This document shows, piece after piece, positions 39,107 to 57,766 of a stretch of DNA of 64,000 nucleotides (position 1 is its first letter; each line of letters starts with the position of its first letter). The stretch spans positions 1 through 64,000 of the forward strand of contig NZ_AYKH01000013.1 of the NCBI RefSeq assembly GCF_003788635.1. The letters run 5' to 3'. The notes beneath the pieces were generated by a model, which was given only the letters and a program-made list of their open reading frames with translations, had not been told where the DNA came from and did no database searches. A program made the position numbers and the translations under genes. This DNA comes from Salinisphaera orenii subsp. orenii MK-B5. Its GTDB lineage: Bacteria > Pseudomonadota > Gammaproteobacteria > Nevskiales > Salinisphaeraceae.

Positions 39107-39751
39107 ATGCAGGCATTCACCATTCACGACGGTATCGTCGCACCGCTGGACCGGGCCAACGTCGACACCGACGCGATCATTCCCAAGCAGTATCTGAAGT
39201 CGATCCGGCGCACCGGCTTCGGCCCGCATCTGTTCGACGACTGGCGCTATCTCGATGCCGGCGGGCTGGACGTCGACGTCGCCACGCGGCGCGAGAATCC
39301 GGACTTCGTGCTCAACACCGAACCGTATCGCGATGCCTCGATCCTGCTGGCGCGCGAGAACTTCGGCTGCGGCTCCTCGCGCGAGCACGCGGTCTGGGCA
39401 CTCGAGGATTTCGGCATCCGCTGCGTGATCGCGCCGAGCTTCGCCGACATCTTCTACAACAACTGTTTCAAGAACGGCGTGCTGCCGATCGCGCTGCCCG
39501 CCGAAACCGTCGATGCGCTGTTCGCCGCGGCCGAGGCGCGCCGGGGTCTGGAGGCGCGCGTCGATCTGGTCGAGCAGCGTATCGGCCTCGACGACGGCAC
39601 GGCCTGCGACTTCGAGATCGACGCCTACCGGCGCAAGAACATGCTCGAAGGCCTGGACGATATCGGCCTGACGCTGCAGCACGCCGATGCGATCCGGGCG
39701 TTCGAGGCGCGGCGGGCCGGCGAAAAGCCCTGGATCTTTCGTGAACTCTAG
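39107..39751 (+). CDS. leuD: 3-isopropylmalate dehydratase small subunit
   Basis: The 214-residue partner of LeuC has the swivelling-domain signatures [34 protein letters not shown] and [16 protein letters not shown]. The length is normal, so the protein looks intact. Oddly, the final G of its TAG stop codon is also the first base of a 295-bp inverted-repeat element that separates leuD from leuB. Confidence 0.96.
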
Positions 39752-40045
39752 GGCCTGTTGCCGTGTCGTACGAGCGCCCCGTTGGAGACCGCAAATCGTG
39801 TCCGGCAAGGCGCGAGCCGCCGCGTCGTGGCGTGCCACGACCCAGGCTCGCAACGCCGTCGGGCGCCCATGGTCAATTTTTTATGGGCGGCCCAACCCGA
39901 AGGGACAAGCGCCCGGAAATAAACAACACGACGGCAATCCAGCGTTGCAGCACGCTTGTGCAGAACCACTGCACGGCGCGTACTACGCCTCGTCTTGCCG
40001 CAAAACAGCGCTTGGCGCGAACTCGTACGACACGGCAACAGGCCC
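39751..40045 (+). mobile_element. 295-bp MITE-like element with perfect 24-bp terminal inverted repeats (copy A)
   Basis: The ends are perfect inverted repeats of 24 bases: 39751-39774, beginning GGGCCTGTTGCCGTG, and 40022-40045, ending CACGGCAACAGGCCC. There is no coding capacity for a transposase. The interior contains a further perfect hairpin GTCGTGGC-GT-GCCACGAC at 39824-39841. A second, inverted, diverged copy lies at 56321-56608 and shares long identical blocks, so it is a repeat family. No clear target-site duplication flanks it. It lies within the leu operon, between leuD and leuB, and would form a long stem in the mRNA. Confidence 0.8.
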
Positions 40046-40084
40046 AAGCGGCGCGATCGCCGCATACCGGACAAGGGACGACTC

Positions 40085-54183: not shown

Positions 54184-55371
54184 ATGAGCGACGATTTCGA
54201 CCCCGACTGGGGAACCGCCACCCGCGGCGTACGCGCCGGGACGCACCGTACGCCCGAAGGCGAGCACAGCGGCGCCATCTACATGACGTCCAGCTTCGTA
54301 TTCGAGTCCGCCGACGAGGCCGCGGCGCGCTTTGCCGGCGAGGCGCCCGGCAACATTTATTCACGCTTCACCAACCCCACGGTCGATGCGTTCTCGAAGC
54401 GTCTGGCGGCCATGGAGGGCGGCGAGTGCTGCGTGGCCACCGCATCGGGCATGTCGGCGATTCTGGCGACCTGTCTGGCCACGCTGGAATCCGGCGACCA
54501 TATCGTGGCCGCGCACACGCTGTTCGGCTCCACCATCGGCCTGTTCAACAACTATCTCGGCAAGCTTGGCATCACGACCAGCTATGTCGCGCCGGACGAT
54601 CTCGACGCCTGGCGGGCGGCGATCACCCCGGCCACGCGCATGCTGTTCGTGGAGACGCCCTCGAACCCGCTGACCGAGGTCGTCGACATGGGGGCGCTGG
54701 CCGACCTGGCTAATGACAACGACGCGTTGCTGGTGGTCGACAACTGCTTCTGCACGCCCGCGCTGCAGCGGCCGCTGGATTTCGGTGCCCACGTGGTCGT
54801 CCATTCGGCGACCAAGTTCCTCGACGGCCAGGGGCGGGCGCTCGGCGGTGCGGTTATCGGCGACGCGGACATCGTCGGCGACCGGGTGTTCCGTTTCCTG
54901 CGCACCTGCGGGCCCACCATGAGCCCGTTCAACGCGTGGATATTCCACAAGGCGCTGGAGACGCTGGAAGTGCGCATGCGCGCGCACAGCGCGGCCGGCC
55001 AGCGAGTGGCGGAATGGCTGGCCGACCAGCCGGCGGTCGAGCACGTCTACTACCCCGGGCTGGCGTCGCATCCGCAGCACGAACTTGCCGCGCGCCAGCA
55101 GCCCGGCGGCTTCGGCGGCATTCTCTCGCTGCGCCTGGCGGGCGGGCGCGAGGCCGCCTTCCGGCTGATCAATGCGACGAACATGATCTCGATCACCGCC
55201 AATCTGGGCGACACGCGAACCACCATCGTGCACCCGGCGAGCACCACCCACGCCCGCATCTCCGCCGAGGAGCGCGCGCGGGCGGGCATCACCGACGGCG
55301 TGGTGCGCGTCGCCGTGGGGCTGGAGAACGTCGAGGACATCATCGCCGACCTCGAGCCGGGGCTGGCCTGA
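54184..55371 (+). CDS. metZ: O-succinylhomoserine sulfhydrylase
   Basis: The 395-residue PLP enzyme of the Cys/Met metabolism family makes homocysteine directly from O-succinylhomoserine and sulfide. PLP lysine Lys211 is in VVHSATKFLDGQGRALGG, and the N-terminus RGVRAGTHRTPEGEHSGA and YSRFTNPTVDAFSKRLAAME are typical of MetZ rather than MetB. The purF-metZ order matches Pseudomonas. ATG at 54184 follows AGGAGA. The TGATG at its end couples it to the DUF455 gene. Confidence 0.94.
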   Translation: MSDDFDPDWGTATRGVRAGTHRTPEGEHSGAIYMTSSFVFESADEAAARFAGEAPGNIYSRFTNPTVDAFSKRLAAMEGGECCVATASGMSAILATCLATLESGDHIVAAHTLFGSTIGLFNNYLGKLGITTSYVAPDDLDAWRAAITPATRMLFVETPSNPLTEVVDMGALADLANDNDALLVVDNCFCTPALQRPLDFGAHVVVHSATKFLDGQGRALGGAVIGDADIVGDRVFRFLRTCGPTMSPFNAWIFHKALETLEVRMRAHSAAGQRVAEWLADQPAVEHVYYPGLASHPQHELAARQQPGGFGGILSLRLAGGREAAFRLINATNMISITANLGDTRTTIVHPASTTHARISAEERARAGITDGVVRVAVGLENVEDIIADLEPGLA

Positions 55372-56162
55372 TGCACCCGGACGACGTTCACGCGGCGTTG
55401 ATGACCCGCGATCCGGCGGCCAAGTGCGCGGCGGCACGCGCGCTGCACGCCGCCGACAGTGCGCCGCTGGCCGCGGCCGGCGGCACGCCCGTGGATGTCC
55501 CAGTGCCCGGCCGGCCGGAGCGCCCCGCGCTCGTGCATCCGGCGAAGCTGTCCAAACGCGGGCTCGGCAGCCCGGAAGGCCGGGCGGCACTCATCCACGC
55601 CATCGCCCATATCGAGTTCAACGCCATCAACCTGGGACTGGATGCCGCCTACCGCTTTCGCGGCATGCCCGAGGACTTCTACGCCGACTGGCTGCGGGTG
55701 GCCGCCGACGAGGCCCGCCACTTCGAACTGCTCCACGCGCGTCTGGCCGATCACGGCTTCGCCTACGGCGATTTCGATGCCCACAACGGCCTCTGGGAGA
55801 TGGCGGTCAAGACCGCACATGACGTCATGATCCGTATGGCCCTGGTGCCACGCGTGCTCGAGGCGCGCGGACTGGACGTCACGCCCGGCATGATCGAAAA
55901 GCTGCGCCAGGCGGGCGACGACGAGACGGTGGCGATCTTCGAGATCATCCTCGAAGAGGAAGTGCCGCACGTGGAGATCGGCACGCGCTGGTTCCGCCAC
56001 TGCGCCGAGCCGCGCGGCCTGGGCCCGGATACCACCTTCACCCGTCTGCTCGACGAATACATGAACGGCGGCCCGCCCGGGCCCTACAATTTTCCCGCGC
56101 GCCGCGAGGCGCGGTTTTCGGAACCGGAGCTGGACTGGCTCGCCGAGCGCGAGCGCCGTTGA
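55371..56162 (+). CDS. DUF455 ferritin-like domain protein
   Basis: The 263-residue protein belongs to the DUF455/COG2833 family of ferritin-like four-helix proteins. Possible di-iron ligands are in HAIAHIEFNAINLGLDAAYR, AADEARHFELLHARL and ILEEEVPHVEIGTRWFRH, giving the Glu, Glu-x-x-His and Glu/His pattern of the fold. Its activity is not established; relatives include tRNA-hydroxylating MiaE-like enzymes. It starts at the metZ stop (TGATG), so both are probably made together, although no metabolic link is obvious. Confidence 0.8.
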   Translation: MHPDDVHAALMTRDPAAKCAAARALHAADSAPLAAAGGTPVDVPVPGRPERPALVHPAKLSKRGLGSPEGRAALIHAIAHIEFNAINLGLDAAYRFRGMPEDFYADWLRVAADEARHFELLHARLADHGFAYGDFDAHNGLWEMAVKTAHDVMIRMALVPRVLEARGLDVTPGMIEKLRQAGDDETVAIFEIILEEEVPHVEIGTRWFRHCAEPRGLGPDTTFTRLLDEYMNGGPPGPYNFPARREARFSEPELDWLAERERR

Positions 56163-56320
56163 TCCGGGGGGACGCGGTGAGATCGACAACGGCTCGCGCC
56201 CCGGTCTGGCCCGCGTGACGCACTGCGCCGTAGCGGTGTCAGCAGTAGATCGGGAAGGAACGGGGCGGTCGGCGCCACAGGCCGACTACCGGGCTCGCCT
56301 AGCGTGGTGGCGATCGCCCA

Positions 56321-56608
56321 GAGCCTATTAATACCTCAGAGCCCCGAGCCAAACGCTTCCAAAAAATCGACTATGGGCGCAAGACGAGGCGTCGTGCGCG
56401 CCGCGCGATCATTCTGCGTCAGCATGCGGCAACGCTGGATTGCCACACAACGACACTTGTCTCGAAGGTTTGGGCTGCGCAAGAAACAACCATGGGCGCG
56501 CTGCGGCATTGCACGTCTTGATCGTGACGTGCCACGACCCGCGACTCGCGCCTTGACGCGCACGATGTGCGATCGCCAACGCAGCGTTCGAATGAAGTGC
56601 TGAGGCCC
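56321..56608 (-). mobile_element. Diverged, inverted second copy (B) of the 295-bp repeat element
   Basis: Read on the minus strand, this 288-bp stretch aligns along its length with the element at 39751-40045. Identical blocks include the 16-base run at 56429-56444 (matching 39933-39948) and the 14-base run at 56379-56392 (matching 39985-39998). Ends retain the GRGCCT core (GAGCCTATTAATACC at 56321, GGCCC at 56604-56608), but the terminal repeats are no longer perfect. It lies in the 511-base gap between the DUF455 gene and the surface-protein gene; the first 158 bases of that gap show nothing else. Confidence 0.7.
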
Positions 56609-56613
56609 AAGCT

Positions 56614-56673: not shown

Positions 56674-57702
56674 TCAGGCCTGCACCGCACCTGCGGCCGA
56701 ATCATCGCGCCGACGACGGAAACCGACGACGGCGATGGCGGCCATTGCCAGGGCGGACAACGGCCAGATCGCGGGTTCGGAGATCGCGCGCGGCGGATCG
56801 TTCGGTACTGGCGACGGGAAGTCGCCGTCGAGCACCGGCTGATGTACTTCGCCGCGCTGCGTGAAGCCGGCGGCGACGACGCTGCCGTTGAGGCTGTTGC
56901 GGTTGGTCAGCTGGGCGTCAGGGGCAAGTATGGAGCCCCAGAATTCGGTGCCGAAATCGATCGCGCCGATGTCGCCGAAGTTCCAGATCACGTTCGAGGC
57001 GATGGTCGACGTCGGCGCAAGGAAGTTGGCCGAGAGCGACAGGATGCTGCCACTGGCCAGCGACGACCCGTCGACGTTGATCAGGATGTGGTCGTCGGTG
57101 CCGAGCGAGAAGCCGATCTCGCGGCTGCTCGAGAGCAGGTCGGCGCCGATGGAGAACACGGATAGATCGGCGCCGCCGCCAGCGAAGCGCACGCCCTGGC
57201 TGTTCTGAGTGAACGTGCTGTTGCTGGTCTGGCTGTTGAGCGAACCGGAATAGTCCTGGAACACGGTTCCGAAGCTGGGAATCGTGACCGTGGCACCCGT
57301 TTGCTTCGACCCGTTGACGTTGCCGGTGACCGTGCCGCCGATGCGCGCACTGCCGCCGTTCAGATTCATGTTCTCGACGTTGCCGCCGACCGCGACATTG
57401 CCGCCGCCGTTGATGTTCTTGTAGCCGCCGGTGATGTTGCCGCCCACGGTGACCGCGTCGTAGCTCGAGGCCGGTGCCTGGCTGCCGCGGGTGTAGTAGG
57501 TCGACGAGGAACCGCCGAGATTGCCACCGACATAGGTGCGACCCTCGACCTCGGAGGTCGAATCCAGATCGCCCAGTACGATCAGATTGAACTGCTGCAT
57601 CAGCGCATCGCCGGTGATCGGCGCGGCCGAAGCGCCGCCCGCGGTTGCCAGAAACACGCCCCCGGCCACGGCTGCGGCCAGTGAACTGAACTTGCCTTTC
57701 AT
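56674..57702 (-). CDS. Choice-of-anchor A family surface protein with PEP-CTERM-like tail
   Basis: The 342-residue protein has a signal peptide ending near GASAAP, then a choice-of-anchor-A domain (QQFNLIVLGDLDSTSEVEGR at its start, WGSILAPDAQLTNRNSLNGS toward its end). Between them are Gly/Asn-rich repeats such as TVGGNITGGYKNINGGGN. The C-terminus reads SEPAIWPLSALAMAAIAVVG then FRRRRDD: a short SEP motif, one helix and an arginine cluster, which is the PEP-CTERM/exosortase sorting layout with a variant first residue. No exosortase is in the window. Low-Cys, Gly/Asn/Ser-rich composition differs sharply from neighbours. It stands alone with its own promoter and terminator, and probably encodes a biofilm or matrix protein. 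Confidence 0.82.
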   Translation of the reverse strand: MKGKFSSLAAAVAGGVFLATAGGASAAPITGDALMQQFNLIVLGDLDSTSEVEGRTYVGGNLGGSSSTYYTRGSQAPASSYDAVTVGGNITGGYKNINGGGNVAVGGNVENMNLNGGSARIGGTVTGNVNGSKQTGATVTIPSFGTVFQDYSGSLNSQTSNSTFTQNSQGVRFAGGGADLSVFSIGADLLSSSREIGFSLGTDDHILINVDGSSLASGSILSLSANFLAPTSTIASNVIWNFGDIGAIDFGTEFWGSILAPDAQLTNRNSLNGSVVAAGFTQRGEVHQPVLDGDFPSPVPNDPPRAISEPAIWPLSALAMAAIAVVGFRRRRDDSAAGAVQA

Positions 57703-57766
57703 AGATGTCCCCTCGTTGCCACGGAATCGCCGGCACGACATGCGCCGACCCTTTGGTAGCGCGCTT

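Follow-up and report, generated by a model that had tools for sequence, protein, structure and literature searches.

MITEs are usually viewed as short-lived derivatives of one transposon. Among the described systems closest to the elements studied here is MITEPsy1 of Pseudomonas syringae, which is 100 bp in length, carries the TIR GGAAGGTCTGAAAAAGCC, has TIRs like those of the IS5 family, and shows a 4-bp duplication of CTAG or YTAA (PMC3189936). MITEAba12 of Acinetobacter (Moraxellaceae) is 113 bp in length, with the TIR GGCTTTGTTGCACAAA and 9-bp duplications (PMC6382973). ERIC/RU-1, Correia, and similar sequences are small intergenic palindromic repeats that are considered MITE-like (PMC2229807).

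A 64,000-nucleotide stretch of the Salinisphaera orenii subsp. orenii MK-B5 genome (hereafter the window) was analyzed in this study, and two copies of one element, A and B, were identified (Table 1). Both are very probably non-autonomous elements of the MITE type that are moved in trans by CTAG-targeting IS5-family transposases and that carry an old structured core.

Two Copies of the Element in the Window

An earlier note on this DNA described 56321-56608 as an inverted, diverged sister copy of 39751-40045. Global alignment of the latter with the reverse complement of the former bears this out, with 197 of 274 aligned columns identical (72%), and the local score of 122 exceeds that of about 1000 random window segments (mean 21, maximum 35). 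The perfect runs that it named, GGCAATCCAGCGTTGC (16 bases) and ACGCCTCGTCTTGC (14 bases), are both present, and the ends of copy B are decayed as described; the TIRs of copy A match at 26 of 27 positions. A profile built from 42 copies placed the elements at 39749-40047 (plus strand) and 56604-56319 (minus strand) and detected no third copy in the window. Because the true ends lie within CTAG, both elements extend to the approximate bounds given in Table 1, which are wider than first noted. The predicted fold of copy A is strong relative to shuffled sequences, and that of the decayed copy B is no better than shuffles (z -1.7).

Table 1. Positions of the two elements, their parts, and adjoining genes in the window.
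Feature	Position	Strand	Basis
Copy A, complete element of ~301 bp in the leuD/leuB gap	39748..40048	+	Profile E 2.7e-83; best own-genome match; fold z -10.7
Left TIR of copy A, CTAGGGCCTGTTGCCGTGTCGTACGAG	39748..39774	+	26/27 match to right end
leuD TAG stop inside the left CTAG of copy A	39749..39751	+	leuD ORF 39107-39751
Arm 1 of copy A, with GCAAGGCGCGAG ... CTCGCAACGCCG	39781..39896	+	Covariance model R1, 111.6 bits
Central small hairpin of copy A, CCC-GAA-GGG	39896..39904	+	Seen in sequence; conserved across genera
Arm 2 of copy A, inverted motif pair region, GGCAATCCAGCGTTGC ... CGCCTCGTCTTGCCGC	39930..40001	+	Copy alignment
Right TIR of copy A, CTAG decayed to CAAG	40022..40048	+	Match to left TIR
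Copy B, full-length yet decayed element of ~294 bp from the other TIR subfamily	56318..56611	-	Profile E 3.3e-76; alignment to A
Arm 1 of copy B	56469..56580	-	Covariance model R1, 87.5 bits
Arm 2 of copy B	56378..56445	-	Alignment
Host gene leuD, upstream of copy A	39107..39751	+	PF00694
DUF455 gene, one side of copy B	54936..56162	+	PF04305
Gene for a putative adhesive surface protein, flanking copy B opposite the DUF455 gene and convergent with it	56674..57741	-	PF20597 pAdhesive_15

Copy B was also found in the sister genome (G012) with 281 of 292 positions identical, and the first 26 bases of copy A were found there at a contig end; both copies therefore appear to predate the split between the window genome (G000) and G012. 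The proposal that the two copies differ in age holds insofar as the ends of B are more decayed, but both appear older than this split, and they are members of different TIR subfamilies. Similarly, the surface-protein gene reported beside copy B is present, but its proximity is incidental because other copies of the element adjoin unrelated genes. Its putative product is ice-binding-like and has a hydrophobic C-terminal segment followed by arginines, which resembles a sorting tail.

Element Family in the Genome and the Genus

Whole-genome searches with copy A and with copy B located the family at 49 or more distinct places in the 3.67-Mb draft genome, the two in the window included. Its members are non-coding and approximately 270-320 bp in length, consistent with MITEs in both size and copy number. 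Mean identity is 79% among the copies of this genome; copies sampled from congeners are more alike (means of 89-94%), and one congener (G009) contains two identical copies at different sites. A strict search for the exact end pattern matched three loci, all of which belong to Salinisphaera halophila YIM 95161 (Salinisphaerales, Gammaproteobacteria).

The consensus starts with CTAGGGCCTGTT; its TIR, roughly 24 bases in length, is followed by arm 1, a small central hairpin, CCC-(TTCG or GAA)-GGG, arm 2, and the TIR again in inverted form. The window genome has two TIR subfamilies, GTTGACGTTTCGTACG and GTTAACACTTCATGCG. The left and right TIRs covary within a copy, with 12-15 sequences changed on both sides at several outer pairs. 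Copies of this genome exist in short and long forms; the long form has a new local hairpin (CCCATGGTC..TTTCATGGGCGG) where the short form has one side of an arm stem (GATTTGCGG).

CTAG Target Sites and Neighboring Genes

The TIRs sit within CTAG, which is present at both ends of many copies. This tetranucleotide is strongly under-represented in the window: trinucleotide counts predict about 51 sites, and 13 are present. Of 39 copies of the genome, 26 have a TAG at an element end that reads as the stop codon of the adjoining gene; these stop codons are found at left ends (13) and right ends (14) without orientation bias. The simplest reading of this placement is CTAG targeting combined with removal of gene-breaking insertions by purifying selection. 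Since CTAG often spans the TAG stop, the host gene stays intact, and CTAG targeting thereby lets the element spread almost harmlessly.

The leuD-leuB site is occupied in the window genome and in G012. In G001, the same TAG of leuD has been hit by an element of another subfamily in reverse orientation, which represents an independent insertion, and no element was found at this site in the other ten congeners examined, within the sequence read. The empty leuD site of G002 retains an intact CTCTAG stop. Copy B was observed in the window genome and G012 and not after the same gene in other congeners. The CTAG duplication is deduced from its presence at both ends, no empty site with one CTAG and both flanks unchanged having been obtained.

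Several arrangements around these sites were also observed. The element after leuD in G001 (L135) contains a second TIR at an internal CTAG, which is either a nested insertion or a recombinant. At L116 685-1811 (G006), a complete 289-bp element directly abuts an 842-bp IS, with one CTAG common to both and a further element end at 1808; this arrangement suggests that CTAG ends can themselves be targeted by later insertions. Intergenic repeats such as CCGCAAATGAACGCGAATGAACGC and GTTCATTTGCG, which follow leuD in G008, G002, and G013 (L127, L131, and L137), belong to another repeat family of the genus and are unrelated to the element.

Probable IS5-Family Partner Elements

G001, G003, G006, and G007 contain IS5-family elements 861-866 bp long whose CTAG ends match those of the family, and G005 has an incomplete one. 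The two transposase proteins tested matched the IS5-family model NF033580 (1.2e-76 and 6.9e-74) as well as PF13340 and PF01609 above the cut-off. In G006, several elements have exactly the ends of the resident IS (CTAGGGCGTGTTGAGGTTTC); the GAGG of this IS is found on 16 of 22 element ends in G006 versus 1 of 58 in G002, G008, G009, and G013, in which GCCG is dominant. GAGG/GATG is common to the IS and the elements of G001, so that in both G006 and G001 the elements share their ends with an autonomous transposon of the same genome, as is typical of MITEs. The two do not agree in G003, where the IS ends have GCCG but the sampled element has GAGG. The IS of G001 is itself located at the stop codons of a convergent gene pair.

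A transposase with the same ends, which the earlier note suggested looking for, is thus present in congeners, but searches of the window's own genome recovered no IS that matches, so the family may no longer be mobile in it. The only DDE_Tnp_1/DUF4096 element of this genome (C1:268 kb, L071) has the ends GAGGGTGTAGACAAAC and is not a partner. Contigs of G010, G011, and G002 that end about 127 bases into the element were considered as autonomous elements and look like assembly breaks in near-identical repeats.

Elements L199 (G007) and L200 (G003) have a homologous core and the different ends CTAGGGCGTGTCGTCA, which resemble those of a second IS (841-842 bp) of G006 and G012. This second IS, with the ends CTAGGGCGTGTCGTCACGAG, is located at L109 970-1810 (G012) and L116 970-1811 (G006).

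The many copies, CTAG at both ends, the empty sites in congeners, and the congener IS5-family elements with matching ends strongly support a mobile or once-mobile family. TIRs within CTAG, the empty sites, and the matching IS together indicate IS5-type MITEs. In the proposed mechanism, the TIRs of A and B, elements that encode no transposase, would be recognized by IS5-family transposases acting in trans; insertion would take place at CTAG, a rare tetranucleotide in the window, often across a TAG stop codon. Between the ends, the elements carry an old structured core that consists of two long hairpin arms, an inverted CAAGGCGC/GCAACGCC motif pair, and the small central hairpin. Cut-and-paste transposition by such enzymes in Salinisphaera, as judged from ends, target, and distribution, appears well supported.

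A Structured Core Beyond the Genus

Aligning 101 elements of the genus and of its order revealed a shared core. When the structure predicted for one distant element was applied to the other 100, 77% of cells conformed to it, versus 36-40% when slid. The covariance model R1, which represents arm 1 only and leaves arm 2 outside, matched 70 of 85 genomes of the order, covering all 21 genera. Across the class, it matched 40 of 229 genomes, the matches spanning approximately 36 families and often being present in many copies, with zero matches in the remaining 189. Many of the distant matches lie in complete elements of 247-281 bp, whose TIRs agree at 16-18 of 18 positions (17 elements). About ten unrelated groups can be distinguished among these TIRs, for example CTAGGGCCTGTTAACACT, AGAGCCTATCCATGAATA, TAGTGTCCCTTAACAGAA, GTACTCCGTCCAGGCATT, and CTAGTACTCTTTCAAGGT.

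Among the 17 distant elements, mean pairwise identity is 0.40 for the TIRs and 0.46-0.50 for the arm-1 stems, and motif identity reaches 0.99 for CAAGGCGC and 0.90 for GCAACGCC, values that are inflated by the search model and filter. The inverted motifs of arm 2 have identities of 0.79 and 0.87, and this pair, allowing up to one mismatch each, is found in 13 of 17 elements versus 7-8% of shuffled or random sequence. Because arm 2 lies outside the R1 model, its retained motif pair confirms homology independently of that model. The stems are divergent in sequence yet complementary (84.5% of cells paired versus 36-41% when slid), and a non-complementary AAG/AAC internal loop in the near-perfect stem of arm 1 is kept in essentially all 17 elements.

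Complete elements were also identified on the Azotobacter chroococcum plasmid pAcX50f and a Halomonas sp. PA16-9 replicon, together with a partial match on a plasmid of P. aeruginosa PA83. These matches were obtained with elements of G164 and G252 as queries; the Salinisphaera consensus and the element of G167 matched no plasmid, and no match was found in the phages searched. A PF01609 search of nine distant genomes revealed one partner-like IS, in G305, with ends 15/20 and 14/20 like those of the element; most of the distant TIR types had no partner IS in this search.

The wide occurrence in Gammaproteobacteria of homologous cores whose ends are unrelated indicates that the core has either followed many transposases or been newly combined with them. 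The two-arm fold and the near-invariant motif pair have been kept over about 36 families, while the ends recognized by transposases have changed past recognition.

Maintenance of the Core

From these data, we infer that the elements are mobilized in trans and that their core is under selection. A role at the DNA level is suggested by the absence of a preferred orientation with respect to genes and by the symmetry of the inverted motifs, and the core is most likely a DNA hairpin that is needed for transposition or bound by a protein. It is also plausible, if somewhat short of probable, that the elements form a single ancient superfamily of structured satellites of approximately 270 bp across Gammaproteobacteria, with a hairpin core recognized by a dedicated or conserved host factor and with ends exchanged repeatedly so as to exploit unrelated transposases; they would then be modular parasites of IS and not the deletion derivative of one IS.

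A more tentative alternative, which we consider somewhat less likely than not, takes the class-wide core as the main unit, recognized by a factor of its own or by a conserved host factor, with ends borrowed from the resident transposase; transposition in trans would then be half of the mechanism. The much higher identity of the motifs of both arms than of the TIRs, the inverted arrangement of the motif pair, the diversity of TIR groups, the exchange of ends inside the genus (L199 and L200), and the model-independent confirmation by arm 2 all favor it, but the arm-1 values are inflated by the search model, no candidate factor was identified, and ends that look unrelated could also arise if TIRs co-evolved gradually, over long times, with a single lineage of transposases.

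Template switching between inverted repeats is established as a process that corrects quasi-palindromes in bacteria. The complementarity of the stems might accordingly be mutational and not selected, as stems that vary freely yet remain complementary would allow; this is unlikely, since correction alone would erase the AAG/AAC loop retained in the distant elements and is therefore inadequate by itself. It is very unlikely that the host keeps the element as a transcribed hairpin that terminates transcription or protects mRNA, with mobility being incidental, because the strong predicted folds and the position of most copies directly after stop codons are offset by insertion sites that differ from species to species, the lack of any preferred orientation, the weak fold of copy B, and a placement that CTAG targeting and purifying selection already yield.

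If this retention of the core alongside greatly changed ends is confirmed, small non-autonomous elements can outlive and switch transposases, and something must select the core.

Comparison With Known Systems

Several known classes were compared with the element and rejected. REP/REPIN sequences are 20-40-bp palindromes with a GTAG or CGTC tag, and the element is approximately 300 bp with CTAG/GGGCCTGTT TIRs. Integron attC sites have the R boxes RYYYAAC / GTTRRRY, whereas by inspection AAC is preceded by GC, a purine for a pyrimidine, in nearly all elements. Identity as a terminator was set aside in view of the non-conserved sites, the absence of orientation bias, and the predicted fold of copy B, which is no better than shuffles. 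No Rfam 15 family scored above gathering in the window, and ten element loci gave sub-threshold matches only; the present description provides annotation for many intergenic repeats that lack one in Rfam. We found no description of the core in the openly available papers that were searched.

The partner IS5-family elements, which we take to be of the IS427-like group that targets CTAG, have the same TIR and CTAG ends in congeners and a transposase of model NF033580, but they are autonomous, 861-866 bp in length, and without the core motif pair. Similar to MITEPsy1, the element is non-coding with IS5-family-like TIRs and a putative CTAG duplication, whereas MITEPsy1 is only 100 bp and a two-arm core is not described for it (PMC3189936). 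MITEAba12 is likewise non-autonomous and has TIRs alone in common with a resident IS, but differs in its length, 9-bp duplications, TIR, and Moraxellaceae host (PMC6382973). ERIC/RU-1 and Correia repeats are also small, intergenic, palindromic, and MITE-like, and are set apart, by description, through their sizes and host ranges (PMC2229807). IS5-type CTAG MITEs and MITEs with IS-shared ends are thus already known, and a class-wide structured core with exchangeable ends is apparently undescribed. Such a core, combined with quite different transposon ends, is unusual for so small an IS parasite.
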